This document shows positions 1,464 through 20,588 of a DNA stretch of 21,037 nt, piece after piece. A program made the translations under genes and the position numbers. The stretch covers positions 1-21,037 of IMG/VR virus record IMGVR_UViG_3300025083_000268; one strand, 5' to 3'. This DNA comes from a virus. The notes under the pieces are model-generated. The model saw nothing but the letters and a program-made list of their open reading frames with translations, did not search any database and was not told the DNA's origin. Position 1 is the stretch's first letter. The number at the start of each line of letters is the position of its first letter.

Positions 1464-4028
1464 ATGGCTAGAGTCGCTGTCGAACTAACAAACTTTACAG
1501 GTGGTGAACTATCACCAAGATTAGATGGAAGAACTGATCTAACTAAATATACATCTGGTTGCTCAACCTTAGAAAATTTAGTTGTCTATCCACATGGTAG
1601 TGCAGCTCGTAGACCAGGTTCTACATTTTTAGCAGAAGTTGCTAACAGTGCAAACAAAACAAGACTAATACCTTTTGAATTTTCTACAACACAAACTTAT
1701 ATGTTGGAGTTCTCTAATTTAAAAATGAGAGTCTACAAAGATAGTGGTGCTGTATTAGAAGGAGACAAAACTATATCTGCAATCACAAAAGCTAATCCTG
1801 CTGTAGTAACTGCTACATCACATGGTTATGAAAATGGTGATGAAGTAGTTATTAGTAGTGTTGGCGGTATGACAGAAGTTAATGGTAAAAGATTTTTAGT
1901 TGCAGACAAAACTACCAATACATTTGAACTACAAGATAAAGATGGTGTTGATATAAACAGTTCATCATTTACTACTTACACTTCTGGTGGTGTATCTAAT
2001 AAAGTTTTTGAATTAGTAACACCTTATACTACTGCACAACTTTTTGATTTAAAATTTGCACAGAGTGCTGACGTTATGTACATTACACATCCTGCACACG
2101 AAGTAGAAAAACTATCTCGTACTGGTCATACCTCTTGGACACTAACAGATGTAGATTTTACTAAAGGACCAATGCAAGATGCTAACACAACTGACACAAC
2201 TTTAAATCCAGGTCAATCAGCAGTGGGTACAGGCATAGCTTTAGTTGCTTCTGCGGTTACTGGTATCAATAGTGGTAGTGGTTTTCTTTCAACAGATGTT
2301 GGCAGATTTGTTTTTTTAAGTGGAGGTTATGCAAAGATAACTGGTGTTACAAATACTACTAATGCAGTTATTACAATCATCACAGCTTTAGATAGTGCAA
2401 GTGCTACAGCTAATTGGCAACTAGGAGCTTTCTCTGATACTACAGGTCATCCTTCAAGTGTAACTTTCTTTGAACAACGATTAGTATTTGCTGGAACAAC
2501 TAACCAACCACAAACAATATTTTTTTCAAGATCAGGTGATTATGAAAATATGGATGCAAACATAGGTGGTACTGTAGCTGATGATGATGCAATCATTTAC
2601 ACAATCGCATCTAACCAAGTTAATGCTATCAGATTTATGACAGCAACGAGAACTTTAATTATTGGTACAGCAGGGGGTGAGTTTACTGTATCAGGAGGTG
2701 GTACTGATAGTGCGGTTACACCAACAAACATATTAATTAAAAAACAATCTAACCATGGTTCAGCTAATGTAGATGCTATAGCTGTAGGTAACGCAACATT
2801 ATTTTTGCAACGTGCTAAAAGAAAAATAAGAGAACTAGCATATAACTTTGATGTAGATGGTTACATTGCACCTGACATGACTATTCTTGCTGAACACGTT
2901 ACTGAAGGTGGCTTGACACAGATTGCATATCAACAAGAACCCAATCAAATTATTTATGCAGTAAGAGGAGATGGTGAACTAGCAGGTCTTACTTATCAAA
3001 GAGAACAACAAGTAACTGCTTGGCACAGACATATTTTTGGTGGTAGATTTGGTAATGCAACAGTTACAGTTACTGATTTTGCAAATATTGCAAATGGTAC
3101 AAGAATAGTTTTAACAAAAGCAGATGGCACAACTACAACCTTTACATCCGCTACATCTTCTACAGCTGGTAAGTTTCATACTACATCTAGTAACAATCAA
3201 AGTGCAACAAACTTAAAAACATTAATAGATGCTGACTCTGATTTTACAGCAACAGTTAATAGTAATGTAGTTACGATTACAGAGACATCACCATTGTCTA
3301 CAGGATTTTTAACTATCACATCTTTAGATGATGCTACTCGATTAACTAGAACTAATGAAGGTAAAGCAGTATGTGAAAGTGTTGCTGTGATTCCAACTGA
3401 CGATACTGAATATCAAGTTTATGTAATTGTCAAAAGAACAATCAATGGTGCAACTAGAAGATTTGTAGAAATATTAAATGTATTTGATTTTGATGAAACA
3501 GATAATACATCATTTAATTTTTTAGATAGTGCATTAAGTTATAGTGGTAGTGCTGTTACAACAATATCAGGACTAGATCACCTTGAAGGACAAACAGTTT
3601 CTATATTAGCTAATGGTGCAACGCACCCAGATAAAACTGTAAGCTCTGGCAGTATTACTTTAGATCGTTCTGCAACAAGTGTTAAAGTAGGTTTAGCTTA
3701 TACATCTTTACTACAAACTATGAGATTAAATGCTGGTTCACAGAATGGTACATCACAAGGTAAGACAAAAAGAATATATGATATAACAGTTAGAATGTTT
3801 GAAACTATTGGTGTAGAAGTAGGACCTGATCTTTCAAACATGGAGAGAATACCATTTAGAAGTTCTGCTGATTTAATGGATGAAGGTATACCACCATTTA
3901 CAGGAGACAAAGAGGTAGAGTTTAGAGGAAACTATGAAACAGATGGTTTTATCTTTGTTAGACAAACTCAACCTTTACCTTTTACAATTTTATCGTTATA
4001 CCCAAGATTAACTACAAATGATGGATAA
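1464..4028 (+). CDS. Tail tubular protein B / nozzle (T7 gp12-like), with two inserted domains
   Basis: This 854-residue protein is the tail nozzle. The start (VELTNFTGGELSPRLDGR, then TLENLVVYPHGSAARRPG at about residues 35-52) and the core segments TPYTTAQLFDLKFAQSADVM (186-205), VTFFEQRLVFAGT (333-345) and VTAWHRHIFGG (517-527) are typical of gp12-like proteins. Two segments look inserted. Residues 103-176 resemble the E1 FCCH-type module seen in other phage proteins (TxSHGYxNGDEVxISxVGGM). Residues about 531-633 form a Thr/Ser-rich beta domain (DGTTTTFTSATS, SNNQSATNLKTLIDADSDFTATV) that interrupts a conserved strand before VCESVAVIP. The gene overlaps the next one by 3 to 11 bases, depending on which Met starts the next gene. 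Confidence 0.92.
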   Translation: MARVAVELTNFTGGELSPRLDGRTDLTKYTSGCSTLENLVVYPHGSAARRPGSTFLAEVANSANKTRLIPFEFSTTQTYMLEFSNLKMRVYKDSGAVLEGDKTISAITKANPAVVTATSHGYENGDEVVISSVGGMTEVNGKRFLVADKTTNTFELQDKDGVDINSSSFTTYTSGGVSNKVFELVTPYTTAQLFDLKFAQSADVMYITHPAHEVEKLSRTGHTSWTLTDVDFTKGPMQDANTTDTTLNPGQSAVGTGIALVASAVTGINSGSGFLSTDVGRFVFLSGGYAKITGVTNTTNAVITIITALDSASATANWQLGAFSDTTGHPSSVTFFEQRLVFAGTTNQPQTIFFSRSGDYENMDANIGGTVADDDAIIYTIASNQVNAIRFMTATRTLIIGTAGGEFTVSGGGTDSAVTPTNILIKKQSNHGSANVDAIAVGNATLFLQRAKRKIRELAYNFDVDGYIAPDMTILAEHVTEGGLTQIAYQQEPNQIIYAVRGDGELAGLTYQREQQVTAWHRHIFGGRFGNATVTVTDFANIANGTRIVLTKADGTTTTFTSATSSTAGKFHTTSSNNQSATNLKTLIDADSDFTATVNSNVVTITETSPLSTGFLTITSLDDATRLTRTNEGKAVCESVAVIPTDDTEYQVYVIVKRTINGATRRFVEILNVFDFDETDNTSFNFLDSALSYSGSAVTTISGLDHLEGQTVSILANGATHPDKTVSSGSITLDRSATSVKVGLAYTSLLQTMRLNAGSQNGTSQGKTKRIYDITVRMFETIGVEVGPDLSNMERIPFRSSADLMDEGIPPFTGDKEVEFRGNYETDGFIFVRQTQPLPFTILSLYPRLTTNDG
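1770..1991 (+). other. FCCH-like beta module embedded in the nozzle gene
   Basis: Codons 103-176 of the gp12-like gene encode a unit starting ISAITKANPAVVTATSHGY and ending TYTSGGVSN. This pattern is shared with the first-catalytic-cysteine-half-like module (E1_FCCH family) found in many phage tail proteins. It sits between a strand ending YKDSGAVLEGD and the conserved VFELVTPYTTAQLFDL, which are close neighbours in simpler gp12 proteins. The boundary is judged by eye. Confidence 0.55.
3054..3362 (+). other. Mobile beta-domain insertion in the nozzle gene
   Basis: Codons about 531-633 encode a Thr/Ser/Asp-rich unit of the type VxLTKADGTTTTFTSAT ... NNQSATNLKTLIDA ... FTATV ... VVTITETSPLSTG. 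Similar units occur as stand-alone modules in many marine phage structural proteins. Removing it would join HRHIFGGRFG to GKAVCESVAVIP, which restores the usual gp12 core strand. I infer a domain insertion, probably exposed on the nozzle surface. Confidence 0.55.
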
Positions 4029-18099: not shown

Positions 18100-18307
18100 A
18101 ACAGTAGTAGCATTATTGATGATTATTAATGGAGAAATTAAAGAACACAGAATACAAGAATCTATGAGTAATTGTTTGAAAGGTAAAAGAATTGCAGATC
18201 GTGGTGATAAAGGTAGTAATATACAACATCAATGTATTCGTAGTAAAGCAGAATTAGAGAAAAATATAGATGGATCTTTTTCAATTAAAAAATTAATATT
18301 AAAATAA
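18092..18307 (+). CDS. Small conserved-looking protein (MVETVVALLM-type), unknown function
   Basis: In-frame Met codons at 18080, 18086 and 18092 are all possible. I chose 18092 because the product then starts MVETVVALLMIINGEIKEHR, the form I expect for this small protein, with an 8-base overlap of the previous gene. The 71 residues have a hydrophobic N-terminal stretch (about 4-12), a charged helix, two Cys (28 and 48) within a CLKGKRIADR ... QHQCIRSKAELE pattern, and a basic end IKKLILK. The N-terminus is short for a full membrane segment. Function is unknown. The gene ends in a TAATG overlap with the DUF6321-like gene. Confidence 0.6.
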   Translation: MVETVVALLMIINGEIKEHRIQESMSNCLKGKRIADRGDKGSNIQHQCIRSKAELEKNIDGSFSIKKLILK

Positions 18308-18588
18308 TGGCTATTAGAAAAACAACAAAAGGTAAGAACGCAAACTACAGACCTACAAAATCTGGAGCTGGTATGACAGCTAAAGGTGTTGCAAGATATA
18401 GAAGAGCCAATCCAGGATCAAAATTAAAAACTGCAGTAACAGGTAAAGTTAAGAAAGGTTCTAAAGATGCTAAGCGTAGAAAAAGTTATTGTGCTAGATC
18501 AGCAGGTCAGTTAAGAAACTCATCAGCTAAAACTAGGAATGATCCAAATTCTAGAATAAGACAAGCAAGAAGAAGATGGAAATGTTAG
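18307..18588 (+). CDS. Highly basic DUF6321-like protein
   Basis: The 93-residue, Lys/Arg/Ser-rich protein has segments GAGMTAKGVARYRRANPGSK (about 20-39), TGKVKKGSKDAKRRKSYCAR (about 45-64) and a C-terminal DPNSRIRQARRRWKC. This is the pattern of the family I know as DUF6321, found in phages and large DNA viruses. Function in the family is unknown. The extreme positive charge, conserved C-terminal RRWKC and near absence of acidic residues suggest nucleic-acid binding, for instance to packaged DNA. It starts on the stop of the previous gene and its last seven bases hold the start of the next one. Confidence 0.75.
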   Translation: MAIRKTTKGKNANYRPTKSGAGMTAKGVARYRRANPGSKLKTAVTGKVKKGSKDAKRRKSYCARSAGQLRNSSAKTRNDPNSRIRQARRRWKC

Positions 18589-19009: not shown

Positions 19010-19149
19010 TGGCTAAAGTTTGTGCTAAAGGTAAAGCTGCTGCTAAACGAAAGTTTAAAGTATACCCATCTGCGTATGCTAATATGTATGCAAGTGGTGT
19101 ATGTAGTGGTAGAATAAAACCTAAAGGTACAAGAAAAAAAAGGAAGTAA
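19009..19149 (+). CDS. 46-residue basic protein with KVYPSAYANMYAS motif
   Basis: The product starts MAKVCAKGKAAAKRKFKVYP and continues SAYANMYASGVCSGRIKPKG before a basic end TRKKRK. The C-x-KGKAAAKRKFxVYPSAYAN(M/G)YAS core with a later Cys is a motif known to me from phages and from large DNA viruses of protists, often beside the family represented by the next gene. TAATG overlaps join it to genes on both sides. The function is unknown. The conserved Tyr/Ala-rich helix and the two Cys suggest a folded core rather than only a loose basic tail. Confidence 0.7.
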   Translation: MAKVCAKGKAAAKRKFKVYPSAYANMYASGVCSGRIKPKGTRKKRK

Positions 19150-19394
19150 TGTCAAAAGGTTTACGATCTTGGGTACAAGCTAACTGGGTAGACATTGCTA
19201 ATCCTAAAAAAAGTGGTGGCTTTCCTAAGTGTGGTCGTAGTGGTGGTGAAAAAAGAAAGAACTATCCTAAGTGTGTACCTGCTGCAAAAGCTAGATCAAT
19301 GTCTGCAAGTCAAAGAGCTTCTGCTGTATCAAGAAAAAAGAAAGCTGAGAGTAAAGGAAGATCAGGTAAGAAACCTAACTATGCTAGGACTTAG
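19149..19394 (+). CDS. Basic DUF5872-like protein
   Basis: The 81-residue protein has the pattern LRSWVQANWVDIANPKKSGG, then CGRSGGEKRKNYPKCVPAAKARSMS, then QRASAVSRKKKAE. I associate 'W..W(V)DI..PK..GG...CGR....YPKCVP..KA..M...Q..SAV.RK' with the family listed as DUF5872, present in phages and giant viruses. Two Cys (28 and 42) flank the basic loop. It is the last plus-strand gene, starting on the stop of the previous one and running 11 bases into the 3' end of the convergent DnaA-like gene. A DNA-binding or virion role is inferred from its charge and late position. Confidence 0.72.
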   Translation: MSKGLRSWVQANWVDIANPKKSGGFPKCGRSGGEKRKNYPKCVPAAKARSMSASQRASAVSRKKKAESKGRSGKKPNYART

Positions 19395-19920
19395 TTAGTT
19401 CTTCAAACTCCTGCCATATTGTTTGCTCATCATTCCAAAATCTTCTTCTATGCTGTTTCATTTGTATAGAATTTAAAACTGTAGTATGATCTTGTTCAAA
19501 AATTCTACCTATATCTGACAGACTCATCTTATATTTTTCATTTAATATATTATGAATAATGTTTCTAGCTCTTACAATATCTGTGGTTCTAGTCTTGGTA
19601 AATAATTCTTTCTTACTTACCTCATACTTAATACAAACTTTATTAATTACAGAGTCTATCTCTGCTTGTCTAGGTTTTCTAAACTGATAACCAATAATCT
19701 TTCTTTCCATTTGTCTTGGTACAATGTGTGTTTCTTTTATCTCGCTTACATGGTCAGACATTTTTTGTTGTGCTAACTCAAAACCTTTTCTAAATCCTTC
19801 TTCATATAACTGAAGCTGTTGTTCTGATAATAAAAAGAAAGCTATCTTATGCTTATAAATAAAGTCGTTGTTGTTTATTTTTTTAATATGTTTTTGAAAC
19901 TCTTGTTTAATTAAAGTCAT
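19384..19920 (-). CDS. Protein with a stand-alone DnaA C-terminal DNA-binding domain
   Basis: The 178-residue protein carries, at about 87-158, a clear DnaA domain IV. EIDSVINKVCIKYEVSKKEL leads to the basic loop RTTDIVRARNIIHNIL (111-126), then MSLSDIGRIFEQDHTTVLNS (132-151), which includes the family signature DHTTV at 144-148. This helix-turn-helix binds DnaA boxes. There is no AAA+ ATPase domain, so it cannot act as a full initiator. The N-terminal part (1-86) is helical and unlike DnaA domains I-III. Likely roles are phage origin recognition, competition with host DnaA, or transcription control. A GTAGGGGATCT leader supplies a ribosome site. Confidence 0.88.
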   Translation of the reverse strand: MTLIKQEFQKHIKKINNNDFIYKHKIAFFLLSEQQLQLYEEGFRKGFELAQQKMSDHVSEIKETHIVPRQMERKIIGYQFRKPRQAEIDSVINKVCIKYEVSKKELFTKTRTTDIVRARNIIHNILNEKYKMSLSDIGRIFEQDHTTVLNSIQMKQHRRRFWNDEQTIWQEFEELTKS

Positions 19921-20133: not shown

Positions 20134-20296
20134 CTTTCTCCTTTGTTACTTTAGTAAAGTCTAATTTAATATTCTCAACTTTACATTCTACAACTTCCCC
20201 TTGTGCGTTGGGGTCGGCAGCTTTCTCTACTTCATCAAATCTTTCAACTAACTGAAAATTAGCTTCGCCAGATTTAATTCTTAAATACTTAATCAT
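20042..20296 (-). CDS. 84-residue protein with disordered C-terminus
   Basis: The product starts MIKYLRIKSGEANFQLVERF, a likely beta-hairpin region, continues with acidic and basic segments (DEVEKAADPNAQGEVVECKV, ENIKLDFTKVTKEKDG), and ends in a low-complexity Ser/Glu/Lys tail that looks disordered. The start overlaps the stop of the DUF6378-like gene by 8 bases. The last third (about residue 55 on) is overlapped out of frame by the 54-residue gene, which may explain its loose composition. No family is recognised. It lies in the presumed early/replication block. Confidence 0.6.
   Translation of the reverse strand: MIKYLRIKSGEANFQLVERFDEVEKAADPNAQGEVVECKVENIKLDFTKVTKEKDGRVKDSPSKVQGSSSEETREVPGSKETSK
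20138..20143 (-). promoter_or_regulatory. Ribosome-binding site inside the upstream gene
   Basis: On the minus strand AAGGAG precedes the ATG at 20133 by 4 bases. It lies in codons for Lys-Glu of the 84-residue gene, which are fixed anyway by that protein's frame. It decides the start of the overlapping 54-residue gene, though the spacing is slightly short. Confidence 0.5.
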
Positions 20297-20588
20297 TTTT
20301 ATCTCTTTTGTCTATATCTTTTTTGTGTAGGTCAAAGGTCATATCATTATAGATAGATAGGTCATGATAGTTATCTGCTTTATAACCCTTGGTAGTCCTA
20401 AACAATTTGAGTGTCATCATGATTTGTCCTACTTGATATGGTCTTAATTTTTTTTTTAAATTCGGTGCTAATATTAAAGTAAATAGCTCTGCAAGTATAG
20501 TGAAATTGTATTGGTAATCGCCATAATCTTTCTGACGATCTGCTACAATCTTCTTCTTAATCTCTTTTTCTATGTCTGTAATTTTCAT
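20289..20588 (-). CDS. DUF6378-like protein
   Basis: The 99-residue protein starts MKITDIEKEIKKKIVADRQK and has the family-type segment RQKDYGDYQYNFTILAELFT (about 18-37), then QVGQIMMTLKLFRTTKGYKA and DNYHDLSIYNDM. The order 'R..DYG....NF..IA' followed by a helix and a late D-x-x-x-D-I-x-x-Y resembles phage proteins listed as DUF6378. Those acidic positions could bind metal, as in all-alpha nucleotide pyrophosphohydrolases, but that is inference. The minus-strand start has no clear Shine-Dalgarno. It overlaps the 84-residue gene and probably belongs to the DNA-metabolism block. Confidence 0.7.
   Translation of the reverse strand: MKITDIEKEIKKKIVADRQKDYGDYQYNFTILAELFTLILAPNLKKKLRPYQVGQIMMTLKLFRTTKGYKADNYHDLSIYNDMTFDLHKKDIDKRDKND

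Follow-up and report, generated by a model that had tools for sequence, protein, structure and literature searches.

HTVC010P-type phages infect SAR11 ocean bacteria and are among the most abundant known marine viruses. They have no DNA polymerase; in one of them, Skadi, helicase and primase are missing as well, although a helicase loader resembling that of lambda is present (PMC10504331). DnaA has been listed among the proteins of HTVC010P-related genomes (Chen et al. 2019, PMC6811365). In E. coli DnaA, base-specific contacts are made by residues 399, 423, 432-435 and 438-439 (PMC5043019); Arg399 inserts into the minor groove, and TnCACA is read by the recognition helix (PMC5742627). Proteins with DnaA domain IV and no AAA+ domain are also found in other phages and collections, namely Sulfitobacter phiGT1 gp62, Olleya Harreka_1, many BFVD entries labelled 'DnaA C-terminal' and phrog_27829, those of phiGT1 and Harreka_1 again residing in phages with ERF-type genes. 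Our literature search returned no paper on the function of any phage DnaA-C protein.

The window analyzed here, a stretch of 21,037 nucleotides, is a fragment of the genome of an HTVC010P-type pelagiphage and encodes a protein with DnaA domain IV (Table 1), the closest isolate being Pelagibacter phage HTVC010P with 95% protein identity over 175 residues. The corresponding genes of phages of this type (HTVC203P gp22, Greip gp42, Skadi) are the same gene in the same place, share 41-95% identity over the aligned part and show no essential difference from the window gene. In several relatives the gene carries the label 'DNA replication initiation (DnaA)' or 'Bac_DnaA_C'; the HTVC010P copy is labelled hypothetical. 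Since relatives have already been annotated as DnaA and listed as such by Chen et al., the gene itself is not new, and its kind was already known because DnaA-C-only proteins are widespread in phages. The window protein likewise consists of a phage-encoded domain IV and a short unrelated N-terminal part, but its identity to the DnaA-C-only proteins of other phages (approximately 27-35%) is confined to domain IV and the N-terminal parts differ. Relatives occur on more than 500 stretches in IMG/VR; one contig of 66,593 bases carrying the HTVC010P-type gene has about twice the usual genome length and may be a duplicated assembly. The only cellular candidate, a single genomic-contig match labelled Woesearchaeota MAG, was set aside as probably a stray phage contig.

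The sequence-only reading had described the product as DnaA domain IV without the ATPase, and profile searches bore this out. Residues 88-153 match Bac_DnaA_C (PF08299, E 6.2e-17, profile positions 1-67 of 69) with 61.8 bits, about twice the curated cut-off of 31.5 bits, and a Pfam search of the 178-aa protein gave nothing else at E <= 1, from which we conclude that the AAA+ domain is absent. PF08299 was also matched by 32/32 aligned homologues. Full-length DnaA models were reached at their C-terminal end only, with scores far from their cut-offs (TIGR00362, 54.5 against 343.9 bits; NF001154, 61.6 against 410 bits), and the solved structures closest by sequence are those of DnaA only (1J1V, 2HCB, 1L8Q, 3PVP, 8BTG). 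In an AlphaFold2 model built on the 32-row alignment, pLDDT is about 91 over domain IV, the top PDB fold match being 1J1V, the E. coli domain on DnaA-box DNA (probability 1.00, 2.2 Å, 95 columns); the DNA-bound DnaA-DBD of M. tuberculosis was also among the best matches. The N-terminal half had been thought unrelated to DnaA, and indeed residues 1-63 have no known relative by Pfam profile or fold search, matches to this domain being restricted to pelagiphages in a tblastn search of the phage collection. Its conserved positions in the homologue alignment are N18, F20, K25, A27, L38-Y39, G42-F43 and G46.

Table 1. Coordinates of the gene under study, its neighbors and the segments of its product within the window.
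Feature	Position	Strand	Basis or remark
DnaA-domain-IV protein gene, 178 aa	19384..19920	minus	ORF call; same place in ten complete relatives
Upstream gene, 99 aa, DUF6378 (PF19905, E 4e-14)	20289..20588	minus	same strand group
Small upstream ORF, 84 aa	20042..20296	minus	no family above cut-off
Small upstream ORF, 54 aa	19969..20133	minus	no family above cut-off
Last gene of the late strand, convergent, 81 aa, phrog_23735	19149..19394	plus	ORF and family match
N-terminal domain, residues 1-63	19732..19920	minus	three predicted helices, 3-17, 22-29, 33-63
Linker, residues 64-84, variable, low-confidence	19669..19731	minus	gapped in alignment; pLDDT < 50 over 61-78
DnaA domain IV, residues 85-156	19453..19668	minus	PF08299 and PDB fold match 1J1V
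Basic loop region, residues 103-120 (RTTDIVRARN = 111-120)	19561..19614	minus	R111, R117, R119 invariant
Recognition-helix start, Q143-D144-H145-T146-T147	19480..19494	minus	DHTT (19480-19491) = E. coli 433-436
C-terminal tail, residues 157-178	19387..19452	minus	invariant W162 and W169; helix 168-177

We then compared the residues that read DNA, taking equivalences from the alignment to 1J1V and judging invariance over 33 non-redundant homologues. The basic loop and the DHTT signature, both noticed in the letters beforehand, are kept: R111, R117, R119, Q143 and DHTT (144-147) are invariant in 33/33 homologues, although much of the protein diverges among them. R111 corresponds to E. coli R399 and D144, H145, T146 and T147 to residues 433-436, L438 is mostly represented by L/I149 and H439 by N/H/Y150. 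The phage protein thus shares with bacterial DnaA domain IV (PF08299; 1J1V, 3PVP) the fold, the basic loop, DHTT and the R399-equivalent arginine, but it differs in having no domains I-III and hence no ATPase, in its own helical N-terminal domain, in the invariant Q143 that replaces R432 and the S/T135 that replaces P423, and in a tail with two invariant tryptophans. As judged from the alignment, the DNA-reading surface is retained apart from a single consistent substitution of R432 by Q; because of this change and that of P423 to S/T, the preferred DNA word may differ in detail.

In the window, the gene is the last of the minus-strand (recombination/early) gene group and is overlapped by 11 bp by the 3' end of the convergent late-strand gene. 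In 10/10 complete relatives examined, including HTVC010P, Skadi, HTVC203P and HTVC034P, it occupies the same place, closing a strand group of small genes and those for a nuclease and an annealing protein of the ERF type (PF04404 in HTVC010P), and facing the late genes. Three observations on the surroundings are recorded for completeness. The DUF6378 protein encoded upstream has PHROG relatives labelled 'phosphofructokinase', which looks unlikely since it has only 99 aa. The late-strand end carries genes for two small Lys/Arg-rich proteins (18307-18588 and 19149-19394) belonging to phage families of unknown function. Finally, positions 1464-4028 encode a tail tubular protein B-like product with an E1 FCCH-type domain (ubiquitin-activating enzyme; PF16190, E 8e-12) at residues 113-181.

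The existing annotation of relatives as replication initiators, the position of the gene at the end of a group with a nuclease and an ERF annealing protein, and the lack of an own DNA polymerase in these phages (and of helicase and primase in Skadi) would fit a replication protein that recruits the host replisome at the single box of the late-gene leader, described below, or at weak sites. The domain that would open the strands, AAA+, is however missing, and the search of complete genomes for clustered TTWTNCACA sites, suggested by the sequence-only reading, was negative: no cluster of DnaA boxes was present in any of the ten relatives, where exact TTATNCACA sites number 0-3 per genome against approximately 2.4-4.8 expected, and sites with <=1 mismatch reach a maximum of 4 in any 300 bp. 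The partial sequences of two other DnaA-C phages were similarly devoid of a tight DnaA-box cluster. The cumulative GC skew has its minimum at or near the region preceding the late genes, which might be taken in favor of an origin there, but the skew follows gene direction and was therefore dropped as origin evidence. A separate gene that resembles a replication initiator, described below, also speaks against this role, which we regard as rather unlikely.

DnaA-type words are nonetheless found at one fixed place. The late leader lies outside the window and was read in the relatives; it is the divergent stretch ahead of the first late gene, which encodes a 62-63-aa protein upstream of terL. There, a single TTAT(A/C)CACA word stands at -55 to -67 relative to that gene. 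Six of the ten isolates have it exactly and all ten have it with <=1 mismatch, so that all ten complete relatives retain both the DnaA-like gene and the leader site. The exact word is TTATACACA in five of the six isolates and TTATCCACA in HTVC010P, and the other four isolates carry a one-mismatch form, TTATACAAA or TTATCAACA. When the word was sought between -70 and -50 in 43 non-redundant leaders drawn from isolates and IMG/VR contigs, it was exact in 33/43 and within one mismatch in 41/43, the remaining two having no box at this level. Taking the best match per leader favors the word somewhat; this bias is answered by permuted words of the same letters, which averaged 0.07 exact matches and about 1.3 within one mismatch over the 43 leaders. 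The leaders share ancestry and cannot be counted as independent cases, an objection partly answered by the spread of the box over ten isolates placed in separate genera (PMC10504331). The columns of the box are nearly constant and its flanks vary, the most variable position being the fifth base (A or C), which is the N of TTATNCACA. As read in the relatives, the late leader box is a regulatory-region target that has been conserved, and we did not find it described in the literature searched. A scan of HTVC010P for a sigma-70 promoter near the box gave no more than chance expectation. In the divergent early/late region of the ten relatives we also observed recurrent palindromes of the TGATAA...TTATCA and TTAGAATNRTTCTAA types, which are possible operators.

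A fixed single box before the late genes points to a gene switch more than to the replication starter of the annotations, and two other uses of the same word have to be weighed against this. Standing alone and with its reading residues conserved, domain IV could be a dominant-negative competitor: by occupying DnaA boxes at the SAR11 oriC it would block initiation in the host or the genes that host DnaA controls, and the leader box would then be a side target or autoregulatory. Such a takeover of the host leaves unexplained why one phage box is so strongly conserved, and we hold it to be improbable. Alternatively, host DnaA itself might read the box, so that late expression would follow the host cycle, with the phage protein doing something unrelated, for instance acting at the packaging region beside the terminase genes. 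The word is indeed the host-type consensus, and the leader, which is followed by the terminase genes, contains further conserved words, such as GGACNCCCT in 36/43 leaders. This explanation would however require that one small phage make use of DnaA-type recognition twice and independently, and it likewise appears improbable to us.

The search for a replication initiator led to a different gene. In the HTVC010P-type phages, the 'putative transcriptional regulator' (31592-32278 in HTVC010P) matches PHROG replication-initiation families in 10/10 relatives: phrog_270 in all ten (best E 1.5e-7) and phrog_678, 'O-like', in 9/10 (best E 3.7e-7). The gene contains paired repeats 22 bp apart in eight genomes and 21 bp apart in one (HTVC034P), HTVC203P showing no clear 21-22-bp pair. 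The repeat words are of the AGATAGC type in seven genomes, with other words in Skadi and HTVC034P, and include AGATAGCC repeats. They are placed after the N-terminal helix-turn-helix region and before the C-terminal one and are followed by A+T-rich sequence. As 22 is not a multiple of three, the 22-bp-spaced repeats are not simply protein repeats, which the 21-bp pair of HTVC034P could be. The origin of phage lambda has the same layout, with repeats inside gene O. By these sequence features the gene is the likely initiator and, with its internal repeats (9/10), a candidate phage origin, in agreement with the lambda-like helicase loader of Skadi; the literature searched contained no description of this origin candidate. 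Lambda O-type initiators share with the DnaA-like protein only the role implied by the replication-initiation label of its relatives, and the two proteins are unrelated. Elsewhere in HTVC010P, the 'putative DNA binding protein' at 32494-32967 resembles the small terminase subunit of the Sf6 type (PF20901 at E 1.3e-5, narrowly missing the cut-off; phrog_1482) and is encoded away from terL.

With a different gene looking like the replication initiator, nothing ties the DnaA-like protein to that task and it could serve another. Three roles had been envisaged from the letters alone, namely blocking host replication, marking a phage origin and repressing at host-like sites. Origin marking through DnaA boxes is weakened by the lack of a box cluster and by the separate O-like initiator with its in-gene repeats, whereas regulation at host-like sites gains from the DnaA-box word that relatives carry at a constant position ahead of their late genes. 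We therefore consider a DnaA-box-binding regulator at the late-gene leader to be the best reading, stopping just short of calling it probable. The protein, combining domain IV with the pelagiphage-specific helical N-terminal domain, would be a sequence-specific DNA binder made alongside the early nuclease and annealing-protein genes, and its target would be the single TTAT(A/C)CACA box that precedes the late operon of terminase and virion genes. We infer that this protein, and not host DnaA, binds the box and that binding alters late transcription, as a repressor or as an activator, and host DnaA may be a competitor for this word.

HTVC010P-type phages encode no known DNA polymerase, which makes the start of their replication and the timing of their late genes questions of interest. 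Our analysis separates two DNA-binding proteins mixed up by annotation, a DnaA-domain 'initiator' and an O-like 'regulator'. We propose, tentatively and with some doubt, that the DNA-reading end of DnaA may have been turned into a late-gene switch acting on the host replication word, competing with or sensing host DnaA, and that replication may start from an unrecognized lambda-O-type origin inside the gene now labelled a transcription regulator. With one particular DNA word and one particular candidate origin named, the function becomes testable.
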